A DNA stretch of 64,000 nucleotides from Sulfurifustis variabilis (GTDB lineage Bacteria; Pseudomonadota; Gammaproteobacteria; Acidiferrobacterales; Sulfurifustaceae): positions 2,604,001-2,668,000 of the forward strand of contig NZ_AP014936.1 of NCBI RefSeq assembly GCF_002355415.1. Direction: 5' to 3'. Made by a program: the position numbers and the translations under genes. Shown in pieces: positions 5,112-9,919 of this stretch; position 1 is the first letter of the stretch; each line of letters starts with the position of its first letter. The notes beneath the pieces are model-generated. The model did not search any database and had not been told where the DNA came from. It was given only the letters and a program-made list of their open reading frames with translations.

Positions 5112-5404
5112 GATCCCTCGCCGTTGCGTCGTGATCGGCGGCATTGCGTTCGAGTCCCGCATTCCGCAGTAGTTCGACCGGCGCACCTCTATTATGGAGT
5201 CCCGCCTCCCGTTTCACCCGCCTGCGCGGCAATTTGCCGCACGGCGCGCAAGCAGCGATAAGCGCGCCTGATCGCCGGCGAAAGACCGAGCGACGAGCTG
5301 CCCGCTTCCCGTCGACGATCTGGAACCTTTCCAGCCGGTCGCGCGTCCTTGGGTGACCCGCCTGCGCGGGATCGACCCACCACCCACCCACCGGGAGAAC
5401 GCTC

Positions 5405-5776
5405 ATGTCCACCACGAACGGAAACCGATACCTTTTCGTCATCACCTCGTTCGACCGGGAGCCCGATCGCACGGCGGCTCCGCTGGTTCTCGCCAACAAC
5501 GCGCTGGCCGCGGGCGCCGACGTGCTCGTCTGGCTCACGCACGACGGCGTCGAGCTCGTCAGGAACGAAGCGGTTGCAGCGGTGAAACCGCCCAGCTTCC
5601 CGTCCTTCGGCGAGCTGCTCGAAAACTACCGCTCGAATGGGGGGCGCATCGGTGTCTGTCCGCCGTGCGGCAAGAGCCACGGTCTGACCGACGCCGACCT
5701 GTCGGCGAACGCGACCTGGATGGGGGCGCAAGCCCTCCTCGCCGAGATGGAGGGCCGGCAGAGCCTGTCGTTCTGA
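5405..5776 (+). CDS. DsrE family protein
   Basis: 123-residue DsrE/DsrF-like protein. The start MSTTNGNRYLFVITSFDREPDR leads into the alternating beta/alpha fold of this family. A Cys-x-x-Cys pair (VCPPCGKSHGL, about residues 84-94) could carry sulfane sulfur, as in DsrE/TusD-type sulfur carriers. ATG at 5405 follows a GGGAGAA stretch. It lies 47 bp before the exported cupin gene and probably shares its transcript. A sulfur-transfer role fits the sulfur-oxidiser setting but is inference; many DsrE paralogues have no known function. Confidence 0.8.
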   Translation: MSTTNGNRYLFVITSFDREPDRTAAPLVLANNALAAGADVLVWLTHDGVELVRNEAVAAVKPPSFPSFGELLENYRSNGGRIGVCPPCGKSHGLTDADLSANATWMGAQALLAEMEGRQSLSF

Positions 5777-5823: not shown

Positions 5824-6294
5824 ATGAAACACGCACTCCTGCCGATCGTCCCGCTCATCGCCGCCGCGCTCGGTAACGGGCTGGCGGTCGCGTCCGAAAC
5901 CGGCCCGGTGCTCGTCGCCCCGGCCGAGGTGAAATGGACCGCCGGGCCGCCGTCGATGTCCCCCGGCGCGCAGATGGCCGTGATCTCGGGCGACCTCAAG
6001 AGTCCGGCACCCTTCACCTTCCGGCTCAAGCTTCCGGCGAGCTACCGTATCGCACCGCACACGCACCCGGCGATCGAGCACGTCACGGTGATCTCCGGGA
6101 CGCTCTACATGGGGCCGGGCGACAAGCCGGACCGGACGAAGGCGAAGGCGCTTACCCCCGGAAGCCTCGCCGTCTTTCCCGCCGGACATTCCATGTACGC
6201 CTGGACCGAGGGCGAGACGGTGATCCAGGTGCACGGCGTCGGTCCGTGGGGGATCGAGTACCTCGACGCGGCCGACGATCCGCGCAAGCCGTGA
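5824..6294 (+). CDS. Exported cupin-domain protein
   Basis: 156 residues starting at ATG 5824, directly after AAGGAGGAACC. Residues 1-24 are a Sec signal peptide (MKHALLPIVPLIAAALGNGL, then cleavage near AVASE). The mature part is a single beta-barrel cupin with metal-ligand pattern HTHPAIEH (motif 1) and PAGHSMYAW (motif 2), so a periplasmic metal-binding cupin is expected. The ligand or substrate cannot be read from the sequence. It sits between dsrE-like and an ECF sigma gene, all on the + strand. Cupins beside ECF/zinc anti-sigma pairs recall ChrR, but here the cupin is exported and separate from the anti-sigma gene. Confidence 0.85.
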   Translation: MKHALLPIVPLIAAALGNGLAVASETGPVLVAPAEVKWTAGPPSMSPGAQMAVISGDLKSPAPFTFRLKLPASYRIAPHTHPAIEHVTVISGTLYMGPGDKPDRTKAKALTPGSLAVFPAGHSMYAWTEGETVIQVHGVGPWGIEYLDAADDPRKP

Positions 6295-6398: not shown

Positions 6399-7076
6399 GT
6401 GTCGTCGTTTGCAGCCGAAGACCGCGAATACTTCGAGCGCGAGCTCTCCGCGCTGCTCGAGGGACTCTACGGCTCCGCGCTTCGCCTCACGCGCAATCCC
6501 GCCGACGCCGAGGACCTGGTCGCCGACACCGTCGCGAAAGCCTGGAGTCATTTCGGGACGCTGCAGGACCGGCAGTGCTTTCGCGCGTGGATCTTCCGCA
6601 TCCTGACCAACACCTTTTTCTCCGATTGTCGTCGGGCGACGCCGGTCGCGCTCGACGAGCAGCCGGAGCCGGCCGACGACGGCGAGGGGGCCAGGCCCTT
6701 TTCGCTGTTCGAGCGGCTGCATCAGCCGTTTCTCCTGTGGTGGAGCGCTCCCGAGCAGGATTTTCTGAACAACGTGCTCGGCTCGCAGATCGAGCAGGCG
6801 ATCGACGCGCTCCCGGAGGCCTACCGGGCGGTCGTGGTGTTGCACGATCTCGAGGAGTTCACGTACGGCGAGATCGCGAACATGCTCTCGGTGCCCGTCG
6901 GCACCGTGCGCTCGCGGCTCGCGCGCGGCCGGGCGCTCCTGCAAAAGGCGCTTTGGGAGCAGGCGGTCGCCGCCGGGATCGTCGCGCCGCATCCCGATGA
7001 CGACGCGGCCCCGCCGGAACCCGGCTCCGCCACATCGTCTTCAACACTAACCGCTCCGCGGGGGTCCCATGGCTAA
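6399..7076 (+). CDS. ECF-family RNA polymerase sigma factor
   Basis: 225-residue sigma-70 family protein. Region 2 (about 20-75) reads LTRNPADAEDLVADTV and FRAWIFRILTNTF. Region 4 (about 130-185) reads ALPEAYRAVVVLHDLEEFTY and GTVRSRLARGRALLQKAL, the helix-turn-helix contacting -35 promoter elements. The start is GTG at 6399 with GGGGGCGAAGGAG upstream. The coding end overlaps the anti-sigma start by 8 bp, showing translational coupling. About 50 residues between regions 2 and 4 and a Ser/Pro-rich tail are longer than in minimal ECF factors. Its targets plausibly include the methyltransferase genes just downstream, but no promoter was identified. Confidence 0.93.
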   Translation: MSSFAAEDREYFERELSALLEGLYGSALRLTRNPADAEDLVADTVAKAWSHFGTLQDRQCFRAWIFRILTNTFFSDCRRATPVALDEQPEPADDGEGARPFSLFERLHQPFLLWWSAPEQDFLNNVLGSQIEQAIDALPEAYRAVVVLHDLEEFTYGEIANMLSVPVGTVRSRLARGRALLQKALWEQAVAAGIVAPHPDDDAAPPEPGSATSSSTLTAPRGSHG

Positions 7077-7308
7077 ACCGACGCCGATCACTTGCGAGGA
7101 GGCGTTGCGGCAGATCTACGCCTACCTCGATCGCGAGCTCGAGGGTCACGCGCATCGGGCGATCGAGCAGCATCTGCGCGTCTGCCGGGCCTGCTTCTCG
7201 CGCGCGGAGTTCGAGCGGCGGCTGAAGGAACGCCTGCGCGAGACGCGGCGGGCAACGGTTTCGGCCGATCTGCGGGCGCGCATCCGCAAGGTAATCGGCA
7301 ACTATTGA
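7069..7308 (+). CDS. Zinc-finger anti-sigma factor (zf-HC2/RsrA-like)
   Basis: 79-residue protein overlapping the sigma gene by 8 bp (ATG at 7069). It has the zinc-binding anti-sigma pattern: an N-terminal Cys in ITCEEALRQIYAYLD and then HLRVCRACFS (His-x3-Cys-x2-Cys). The family includes RsrA and ChrR N-termini, where oxidation or metal binding releases the sigma factor. It has no membrane segment, so the signal is probably sensed in the cytoplasm. Together with the preceding gene it forms a standard autoregulated sigma/anti-sigma module. A thiol or metal stress input is inferred from the family and from the ArsM-like genes that follow. Confidence 0.9.
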   Translation: MAKPTPITCEEALRQIYAYLDRELEGHAHRAIEQHLRVCRACFSRAEFERRLKERLRETRRATVSADLRARIRKVIGNY

Positions 7309-7397: not shown

Positions 7398-8813
7398 ATG
7401 GTCGCGATCGCGAGCTTCAAGAAGGAGGCCATCGAGCGCGCGGTGCAGCAGATGTACACCGCGGTCGCGCGGCATCCCGAACGCCGGTTCCACTTTCCGA
7501 CCGGGCGCGCCGCCGCGCGCCTGCTCGGGTACCCGGACGCGGAGCTCGATGCCCTGCCAGGCGACGCGATCGCCTCGTTCGCGGGCGTGGGCTATCCGTT
7601 CCAGGCGGACGCGATCCGCGAAGGCGACATCGTGCTCGACGTCGGCAGCGGCTCGGGCACGGATGCGCTGATTGCGAGCCGCCGGGCGGGTCCGCGCGGG
7701 AAGGTATACGCGCTCGATATAACGGAGCCGATGCGCGCGAAGCTCGCCGACATCGCCCGGCGCGCGGGCGCGAACATCGAGGTGGTCGCCGGCAACGCCG
7801 AGGCGATTCCGCTGCCGGACGCCTCGGTCGACGTGGCCACGACCAACGGCGTGCTCAATCTGGTGCCCGACAAGGCGCGCGCCATCGAGGAGATCCACCG
7901 CGTGCTGAAACCCGGCGGACGACTTGCCATCGCCGACATCGCGCTCGGCAAACCGGTGTCGTTCAAGTACCGGCAGGACCCGGACCTCTGGGCCGAGTGC
8001 GTGGTCGGTGCCGTGGAGAAGGGTCGCTACCTCGAGATGCTGCGGGCGGCGCGCTTCGGCGACGTGGAGATCCTGGACGAGCTCGATTACTTCGCCGCCA
8101 GCAACAGCCCGGAAACCCGCAAGGTCGCCGCCCTGTTCGGCGCGCAGTCGATCGTGCTGCGCGCGCGCCGGAGGTCGGCCCGGTCTCGCCTGCCCGCCCT
8201 CGGCACGGGCTGGAGACGCCGGGGCCTGCGCCTCGCGCAGGAAGGGGCCGGGATCGCGGGGGCCTGGCTCGCCGCCGGGATCTGCGCGGGCATGCCCGCG
8301 CTGCTCTCGATGCTGTCCGCCGCCGGCGCGGGCGCCTTGGCGCGTCACGCCTACATGTTCCCGCTCTTCGTGGTCTTCGTGGCGCTGAGCACCTGGCTGC
8401 TGCACGGCAGCGGTCGCACCGGCGGACACGTGGGGCCGTTCCGCCTGGCTCTCGCGAGCGGTGTCCTCGCGATCGCCTCGTTCTGGCTGTCGGTCACCGA
8501 GCTGGTGCCCGCCGTATGGTACGGCGCCTACGTCGGGCTCGCCGGGCTCGGGGCAGCCAGCGTCTGGGCTTTCGTGAAGGCCCGCGACCCGGTCAGCTGC
8601 CTGGACGAGATGGTGCGGGAGGCCGAGCGGGAGCGGCATGGGTTTGCCGCGTCGCACCCGCTCGCCCGCGGGGCGGTCATCGCGCTGGCGGCGGCCGCGG
8701 TGCTTTACGCGATGTACAAATCCGTCGACGTGTTCGTCGGAAAGGCCGAAGCGATGGAGATCGCCTGTGCCGATCCGCAAACGTGCAAAGAAGAAGATCA
8801 CCGGAGAACCTGA
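7398..8813 (+). CDS. ArsM-like methyltransferase fused to a MerC-like membrane domain
   Basis: 471 residues with two parts. Residues 1-255 are a class I SAM-dependent methyltransferase with motif I VLDVGSGSG (79-87), the ArsM-like entry AIASFAGVGYPF (58-69) and Cys201 in DLWAECVVGA, at the place of a conserved arsenite-binding Cys in ArsM. Residues 283-441 hold about five membrane helices (near 283-312, 318-336, 347-366, 372-394, 423-441), with a lone Cys in AAGICAGMPALL resembling the helix-1 Cys/Pro element of MerC/MerT mercury carriers. The short tail has Cys457 and Cys463. Start ATG 7398. It is paralogous to the methyltransferase at 9134. Substrate (As, Hg, Se or other) is unproven; the fusion is unusual. 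Confidence 0.8.
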   Translation: MVAIASFKKEAIERAVQQMYTAVARHPERRFHFPTGRAAARLLGYPDAELDALPGDAIASFAGVGYPFQADAIREGDIVLDVGSGSGTDALIASRRAGPRGKVYALDITEPMRAKLADIARRAGANIEVVAGNAEAIPLPDASVDVATTNGVLNLVPDKARAIEEIHRVLKPGGRLAIADIALGKPVSFKYRQDPDLWAECVVGAVEKGRYLEMLRAARFGDVEILDELDYFAASNSPETRKVAALFGAQSIVLRARRRSARSRLPALGTGWRRRGLRLAQEGAGIAGAWLAAGICAGMPALLSMLSAAGAGALARHAYMFPLFVVFVALSTWLLHGSGRTGGHVGPFRLALASGVLAIASFWLSVTELVPAVWYGAYVGLAGLGAASVWAFVKARDPVSCLDEMVREAERERHGFAASHPLARGAVIALAAAAVLYAMYKSVDVFVGKAEAMEIACADPQTCKEEDHRRT

Positions 8814-8815
8814 GC

Positions 8816-9079
8816 ATGGCCCAAACCCCCATCACCCCCGACATGACCATGTGGTCGGCGTATCGGTACGAACCGAAGGTATACGAGGTGTTTCAGCGCT
8901 ACGGCTGCCCGGACATCCGCAGGGGCATCTTCCCGCTGCTCTCCCGCGTCATGAGAATCAGATGGGCCGCCCGCATCCACAACACCCCGCTCGACGCCCT
9001 GATGCGCGACCTGAACGCGGTGGCGTCGGGTGCACCCCGCGCCGCCGAACCCGCGCGGGCCCGTCCGGGAACCCTTTAG
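8816..9079 (+). CDS. DUF1858-like small protein
   Basis: 87 residues, ATG at 8816, two bases after the stop of the methyltransferase fusion and so probably co-translated. The region ITPDMTMWSAYRYEPKVYEVFQRYGCPDIRRG resembles DUF1858 domains (found alone or near redox and hybrid-cluster proteins): a short helical fold with Gly-Cys-Pro near residue 30. A basic stretch (SRVMRIRWAARIHN) and an Ala/Pro-rich tail follow. Function unknown; the position between two ArsM-like methyltransferases suggests a redox or metal-related accessory. Confidence 0.65.
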   Translation: MAQTPITPDMTMWSAYRYEPKVYEVFQRYGCPDIRRGIFPLLSRVMRIRWAARIHNTPLDALMRDLNAVASGAPRAAEPARARPGTL

Positions 9080-9133
9080 CCCGCTCGCGCGTCCTCTCCT
9101 CGCAGCCTTCAAACCACCGCGAGGAGAGACACC

Positions 9134-9919
9134 ATGAGCACCGTATTGGCCGGCCGTGCCGTCGACCGCCGCGAGCTCGAAAGCAAGGTCAAGGAGATGT
9201 ACCAGAAGGTCGCCGAGGAGCCGACCGGCGAATTCCACTTCGAGATGGGACGCGGGCTCGCCGAGCGGCTGGGCTACGAGCCGCGCGACCTCGATCGCAT
9301 TCCGCGGGAGGCGATCGACTCGTTCGCCGGCGTCGGGTATCACATCGACCTCGCCGGCCTCGAGCGCGGGGCGCGCGTCCTCGACCTCGGCAGCGGCAGC
9401 GGCATGGACACCTTCGTCGCGGCGCTCGAGGTCGGCGCCGAAGGCCGCGTGCACGGCGTCGACATGACCGACGCGCAGCGCGCCAAGGCCGAACGCCTGC
9501 GCGACCGCGCGGGCTTCACGCAGGTGCGCTACCACAAGAGCTACATCGAGAACCTGCCGTTCGACGACGGTACCTTCGATGCGGTGATCAGCAACGGCGT
9601 GATCAACCTGTCGGCCGACAAGGCGCAGGTCTTCCGCGACGCGGCGCGCGTGCTGCGCAACGGCGGGAGGCTCGCGATCTCCGACATCATCACCGATAAA
9701 AACCTGCCCGAGGGCGTCACGTGCAACGCGACGCTCTGGGCGGCCTGCATCGGCGGTGCGATGCAGCAGGACGACTACTTCGACGCGATCCGGGCGGCGG
9801 GCTTGCGCCTCGTGCGCACGCGCGAGAACCCGCAGTACCGCTTTCTCACCGCTTCGGCGCAGAAGGCCTGCGCCGCCTACGGGGTGCGCAGCGTGTCGCT
9901 GGTCGCGGTCCGGGCGTAG
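9134..9919 (+). CDS. ArsM-like SAM-dependent methyltransferase
   Basis: 261 residues, ATG at 9134 after GAGGAGAGA. Class I methyltransferase with motif I VLDLGSGSG (82-90), acidic motif GVDMTD (108-113), motif AISDIITDKN (181-190) and the ArsM-like block AIDSFAGVGYH (60-70). Cysteines lie at 197 and 205 (VTCNATLWAACIGGAM) and 246, the arrangement expected for trivalent-metalloid binding in ArsM relatives. Paralogous to the N-terminal half of the protein at 7398. No ArsR repressor or ArsB is nearby, so arsenite as substrate is only the best guess. Last gene of the cluster headed by the ECF sigma pair. Confidence 0.8.
   Translation: MSTVLAGRAVDRRELESKVKEMYQKVAEEPTGEFHFEMGRGLAERLGYEPRDLDRIPREAIDSFAGVGYHIDLAGLERGARVLDLGSGSGMDTFVAALEVGAEGRVHGVDMTDAQRAKAERLRDRAGFTQVRYHKSYIENLPFDDGTFDAVISNGVINLSADKAQVFRDAARVLRNGGRLAISDIITDKNLPEGVTCNATLWAACIGGAMQQDDYFDAIRAAGLRLVRTRENPQYRFLTASAQKACAAYGVRSVSLVAVRA

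Follow-up and report, generated by a model that had tools for sequence, protein, structure and literature searches.

A single open reading frame of Sulfurifustis variabilis encodes a methyltransferase resembling the arsenite-methylating ArsM enzymes and, in the same chain, a set of membrane helices resembling mercury carriers. This raises the question of whether the union is genuine and of what an enzyme joined to a carrier might do. The locus was analyzed within a window, the whole stretch of 64,000 nucleotides, to which the coordinates of the following features refer.

5322..5347, plus strand: candidate ECF promoter GGAACY-N15-GCGTC, located 58 bp upstream of the DsrE gene; recurs in related loci
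5405..5776, plus strand: DsrE-like protein, whose gene probably opens the operon (PF02635, 49.7 bits; 19 of the 80 related loci have a homologue)
5824..6294, plus strand: cupin, probably exported (Cupin_1, 25.1 bits; 18 of the 80 related loci have a homologue)
6399..7076, plus strand: ECF sigma factor (Sigma70_r2, r4_2; nearest NCBIfam models of the SigH/SigR type, below cut-off)
7069..7308, plus strand: zinc-type anti-sigma factor with HxxxCxxC (zf-HC2, 35 bits; antisig_RsrA, E value 7.5e-13)
7398..8813, plus strand: methyltransferase-MerC fusion protein, 471 amino acids (single uninterrupted open reading frame; homologous fusions in other genomes)
7398..8165, plus strand: class I SAM methyltransferase domain with the ArsM fold, residues 1 to 256, sole cysteine Cys201 (Pfam and NCBIfam; model against 6cx6)
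8247..8570, plus strand: MerC-like four-helix carrier, residues 284 to 391, lone Cys296 in TM1 (PF03203; AlphaFold helices)
8598..8600, plus strand: Cys401, in the loop after TM4, predicted to be cytosolic (alignments)
8658..8810, plus strand: fifth helix and predicted periplasmic tail with CX5C (Cys457, Cys463), residues 421 to 471, an apparent BufA2 remnant by aligned relatives
8816..9079, plus strand: DUF1858-like protein (26.2 bits, below the cut-off of 32.2; present in 2 of 80 related loci)
9068..9093, plus strand: candidate ECF promoter GGAACY-N15-GCGTC, located 41 bp upstream of the second methyltransferase; recurs in related loci
9134..9919, plus strand: second, free-standing methyltransferase, 261 amino acids (Pfam and NCBIfam; 38% identical to the fused domain)

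Architecture of the fusion protein

From its N terminus, the protein is composed of the methyltransferase, a basic linker, four helices, an amphipathic loop containing Cys401, and one more helix, which is followed by a short tail bearing two cysteines. The fusion of a methyltransferase to a MerC-like membrane domain, proposed in the earlier note, is real. It is encoded by one frame and occurs in other genomes of the same family (G001, G003, G019, and G013) and in cultured isolates of Halomonas, Billgrantia, Marinobacter, and Chelativorans. Chance and assembly error are ruled out as its source, since the fusion is shared by a closed genome, independent assemblies, and isolates. Public records name such proteins methyltransferase domain-containing protein, nothing more specific. 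The fusion of G013 (L043:5134-6669, the same as L056) ends inside the carrier half, from where the reading frame leads on into an unrelated exported protein, through either a deletion or an assembly fault.

The AlphaFold model, with a mean pLDDT of 84.9 and values of 90 to 98 over most of the methyltransferase, presents five membrane-length helices C-terminal to that domain. The linker ahead of TM1 contains nine lysines or arginines and no aspartate or glutamate, which places the methyltransferase in the cytosol; the predicted topology has the enzyme on the cytosolic side and the tail in the periplasm.

The methyltransferase domain matches the Pfam profile Methyltransf_31 (86 bits) and ArsM-type NCBIfam models (E values of 1e-54 to 1e-58) over residues 74 to 218, with the SAM-binding motif VLDVGSGSG at residues 79 to 87. 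ArsM enzymes are its nearest solved relatives, both by sequence and by predicted structure (Foldseek, VIA). Comparison of the model with ArsM 6cx6 (VIA) gave a Z score of 25.8 and an RMSD of 2.2 over 223 residues, the next families scoring about 20. The match to PRK11873, the curated ArsM model, reaches 185 bits, below the cut-off of 263. An ArsM-like cysteine had been noticed earlier, which is correct for Cys201, the equivalent of CmArsM Cys224 and a cysteine in all 82 aligned subfamily sequences, but not for the other two positions: the equivalent of Cys72 is valine in 81 of the 82 sequences, and that of Cys174 is glycine in every one. Because these two cysteines are absent, arsenite methylation is not transferable from ArsM to this subfamily.

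Unfused relatives of the methyltransferase, 40 to 43% identical, occur on haloarchaeal megaplasmids (NZ_CP101459.1, CP050015.1, and others). The genome of the window contains a further ArsM-like paralogue (L031, G000:C1:3688026-3691769) beside membrane protein genes and a gene for a small protein of HMA-like appearance. Some methyltransferase matches include an in-frame TGA, a possible sign of selenocysteine; for the paralogue inspected, L032, this was ruled out, since the match apparently overruns an ordinary stop codon.

The carrier half of the window protein matches the Pfam MerC profile (PF03203) weakly, at 16.9 bits against a cut-off of 27.6, which is exceeded in the orthologous fusions L042 (29.1 bits) and L052 (28.2 bits). 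This bears out the MerC/MerT identity assigned to the C-terminal half, as opposed to a transporter-unrelated family. A profile search for a solved fold of the carrier half gave MerF alone (E value of 0.013). The modeled carrier helices span residues 271 to 314 (TM1, of low confidence, with a pLDDT of 55 to 58), 320 to 342, 346 to 366, and 374 to 394. The count of about five membrane helices in the earlier note agrees with the model, but four of them are MerC-like, and the fifth appears to be part of a truncated BufA2 bufferin. The lone TM1 cysteine that it described is Cys296, which is not lost in close homologues and is kept in all fused relatives. The TM1 motif reads xCxG in the fusions (LCTIG in L114) versus CCLG in all six free MerC-BufA2 proteins, so that every fusion examined has one cysteine in place of the vicinal pair. 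Cys401 is kept in the fusions of a MerC(+BufA2) carrier to the methyltransferase (type A) and aligns with the first cysteine of a CX4C motif in the free carrier of G020. With one cysteine lost from each metal-binding pair of the carrier, two-thiol metal transport may be impaired or altered.

BufA2 bufferins are periplasmic metal-binding peptides, and bufferins are modified by MNIO enzymes. The BufA2 profile (cut-off, 60 bits) matches the fusions of G003 (67.0 bits) and G019 (69.8 bits) as well as the free MerC-like protein of G020 (79.1 bits). In the window protein, the tail segment IACADPQTC aligns with the first CX5C of the BufA2 domain, and there the chain ends; the full cysteine set is absent, and the families listed for this protein include no BufA2 match. 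Since only the first CX5C is left, the window protein appears to descend from, or to shorten, a methyltransferase-MerC-bufferin protein and, judged by these alignments, is a shortened form of that fusion.

The MNIO family (PF05114) is found in 11 of the 12 genomes examined, that of the window (G000) included, and is missing from G001, whose fusion has no tail. A separate BufA2 gene followed by an MNIO gene lies elsewhere in the window's own genome (G000:C1:2937001-2938105). Free MerC-BufA2 genes are located within about 3 kb of MerA in six of six genomes, one of these MerA genes being broken by a stop and below cut-off. Among the fusion genomes, several of which are incomplete, MerA exceeds its cut-off only in G000, distant from the locus. 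In G252 (L134:1125-2190), a second bufferin-like gene follows immediately 3' of MerC-BufA2.

Operon and promoter motif

The fusion gene belongs to an operon with an ECF sigma factor and an anti-sigma factor, a setting that the earlier note did not include. A scan of species-level genomes retrieved 80 loci with this methyltransferase subfamily, and 73 of them also encode an ECF sigma factor together with a short anti-sigma factor. HxxxCxxC is present in all 73 anti-sigma relatives, whose gene usually lies within 100 bp upstream of the methyltransferase. The anti-sigma factor of the window scores 48.4 bits against the RsrA model, under the cut-off of 62.5. Zinc anti-sigma factors of the RsrA kind sense thiol-reactive stress, as is established for RsrA, and by analogy the window-type anti-sigma factor may do the same. 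In Cyclobacterium and Balneolales (L110, L117, L124, and L127), a large protein precedes the methyltransferase and replaces the sigma/anti-sigma pair; it has about 1100 amino acids in L117 and looks like a transcriptional activator.

Common neighbors (DsrE, cupin, OsmC, and truncated haemoglobin) would suit a response to metals and equally one to thiol or oxidative stress in general, and the window operon contains no ars or mer genes. Both genes said earlier to follow the fusion are in place; the free-standing methyltransferase is indeed a paralogue, but the DUF1858 assignment of the other is a sub-threshold match.

The motif GGAAC-N-[CT]GTC was found in 46 of the 72 upstream regions tested, against a mean of 1.1 and a maximum of 4 in shuffled sequence. 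Its refined form, GGAACY-N14/15-GCGTC, gave 99 matches in 65 of 81 loci versus 3 to 6 in shuffled sequence; these counts overstate the significance, since the motif was taken from the same data and from related loci. The gene called within 200 bp past the motif is mostly a sigma, methyltransferase, DsrE, or cupin gene. The window contains two sites where 0.48 are expected, and at least two occurred in 8 of 100 shuffles. Genome-wide there is no excess (21 sites versus 25 in the control), so that the regulon looks local. The SigR promoter GGAAT-N-GTT showed no excess in the upstream regions.

Recurrence of methyltransferase-carrier fusions

Three kinds of fusion were found among 81 close relatives of the methyltransferase, with MerC(+BufA2), with another short MerC, and with MerT-MerP. 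Type B, with the shorter MerC, comprises 22 loci, and PF03203 scores 30 to 45 bits, above cut-off, in all four tested. The third kind is an acidobacterial protein (L114:5956-7374) that has MerT-like and MerP/HMA-like parts in the same chain as the methyltransferase; the carrier part matches the MerTP model with an E value of 1.6e-23 and HMA with 35.8 bits, the cysteine spacing of the HMA motif being altered. In L057, a separate MerC-like gene directly follows the methyltransferase gene, unfused. In about 50 of the 80 relatives the methyltransferase is not fused, and no carrier was detected in the vicinity. The coupling of carrier and methyltransferase suggested from the window alone is strengthened by these three kinds and the one adjacent unfused pair.

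In a tree of the methyltransferase part, each of types A and B makes up a single group amid unfused sequences, and a minimum of three changes is required. The AU test rules out a single clade of all three types (P value of 0.006) but not one of types A and B (P value of 0.083). Type A carriers are 35 to 52% identical to free MerC-BufA2 proteins and match type B carriers at E values of 0.015 or worse, which argues for separate fusion events.

Possible function and relation to known systems

The best model, which we consider about as likely to be right as wrong, is a module induced by thiol stress that imports and methylates a thiophilic metal(loid). Because the enzyme family has apparently been joined repeatedly to different mercury-type carriers, cells probably import a toxic thiol-seeking metal(loid) and methylate it at once. 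A thiol-reactive agent would cause the zinc anti-sigma factor to release the ECF sigma factor, which would then transcribe the operon from GGAACY-N-GCGTC promoters. The fusion would be located in the inner membrane with the methyltransferase on the cytosolic side. The bufferin-type tail, which relatives have in full and the window protein in shortened form, would capture the metal(loid) in the periplasm. Cys296 of the MerC-like carrier would then accept it for inward transport, and it would pass via Cys401 to the methyltransferase near Cys201 for SAM-dependent methylation, so that the free toxic ion would never be released.

The model builds on the domain make-up, the recurrent fusion, the conserved single cysteines, the sigma/anti-sigma linkage, and the promoter motif, and from these we infer the inducer, the direction of transport, the hand-over, the methylation, and the identity of the substrate. 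It is supported by the ArsM-type fold with its SAM motif, MerC scores above cut-off in relatives, the three mercury-type carriers fused, the adjacent pair of L057, MerA near free MerC-BufA2, and the basic linker.

More tentatively, and more likely wrong than right, the protein could be a detoxification machine in one polypeptide, with a periplasmic metallophore, a carrier, and a cytosolic methyltransferase end to end, in which methylation replaces reduction by MerA and the cargo runs along the tail, Cys296, Cys401, and Cys201. If so, the methyltransferase would methylate metal(loid)s and bind its cargo at a site unlike that of ArsM.

The main rival to import and methylation is a substrate of thiol stress that is not a metal (hydrogen sulfide, persulfide, a low-molecular-weight thiol, a quinone, or another electrophile-damaged molecule), with the MerC-like part serving as an anchor or redox-sensing bundle without transport. 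Several observations that weigh against the preferred model speak for this reading: the two missing arsenic-binding cysteines, the carrier pairs one cysteine short, and the relatives, about 50 of 80, that operate without a carrier. DsrE, cupin, OsmC, and the second methyltransferase point to sulfur and redox stress; neighbors that suit thiol stress as readily as metals, and the lack of ars and mer genes in the operon, also count against the preferred model. However, three fusion types that each have a mercury-type carrier, one with a MerP-like HMA domain and one with a metal-binding bufferin, would be surprising for a plain anchor, and the remaining TM1 cysteine is invariant in all fused forms; the reading is unlikely, if a serious one. 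An ordinary arsenite methyltransferase coupled to an arsenite or methylarsenite carrier would accord with the best structural matches (ArsM, Z score of 25; next family, about 20), the invariant Cys224 equivalent, and the nearest NCBIfam models, named arsenite methyltransferases, but is improbable given the lack of the Cys72 and Cys174 equivalents throughout the subfamily, the score under the ArsM cut-off, and MerC-type carriers known for mercury and not arsenite. Decay of the carrier half into non-functional debris in the window organism is very improbable: the sub-threshold MerC score and the bufferin tail, shortened here and lost in L055 and L052, together with the truncated carrier of L056, would fit it, but Cys296, Cys401, the helices, and the charged linker have persisted through a long divergence, at about 40% identity, with intact frames in six lineages.

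The individual parts and MerC-bufferin chimaeras are already known. The open-access literature searched yielded no report of the three forms of methyltransferase-carrier fusion, of the triple architecture, or of the conserved sigma/anti-sigma/methyltransferase module and its promoter. The recurrent fusions and their sigma-factor setting give a concrete, testable metal(loid)- or thiol-stress function across at least eight bacterial phyla, and suggest that methylation can be tied directly to uptake. The nearest models name these proteins arsenite methyltransferase, and genome surveys may overcount arsenic methylation if sequences without the two arsenic-binding cysteines are counted as ArsM.

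Among known systems, ArsM/AS3MT enzymes (CmArsM 6cx6 and 4fr0; CrArsM 5evj) share with the window protein the class I fold over residues 32 to 263, the SAM motif, and the Cys224 equivalent, whereas the window protein has valine and glycine for Cys72 and Cys174 and a membrane carrier instead of the C-terminal ArsM domain. The nearest named methyltransferase models, ArsM/AhpD, ArsM/DUF2284 selenoproteins, and UXPK-star (NF041537, NF041536, and NF047649), are likewise multidomain fusions, in which, judged by model name, the partner is an AhpD, DUF2284, or UXPK part and not a carrier. SigR/RsrA and related pairs of ECF and zinc anti-sigma factors have in common with the window module the adjoining zf-HC2 HxxxCxxC anti-sigma factor and a GGAA-type -35 element; the module differs in its -10 element, GCGTC, an apparently local regulon, and scores of both proteins below the SigH/RsrA model cut-offs. 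In comparison with the MerTP fusion (NF033556) and MerT/MerP, L114 has MerT-like and HMA domains behind the same methyltransferase, with a single TM1 cysteine and a changed HMA motif. Closest to the membrane half are the published MerC|Buf2 chimaeras, which have five membrane segments and a periplasmic bufferin and occur in mercury-related clusters (PMC12452194, whose main text nowhere uses the word "methyltransferase"). Type A fusions share with them the four MerC helices, the fifth helix, and the periplasmic BufA2 tail, at 35 to 52% identity, but add an N-terminal methyltransferase, lose one cysteine of the CC pair, and have no adjoining merA; in the window protein, the bufferin appears reduced to its first cysteine pair.
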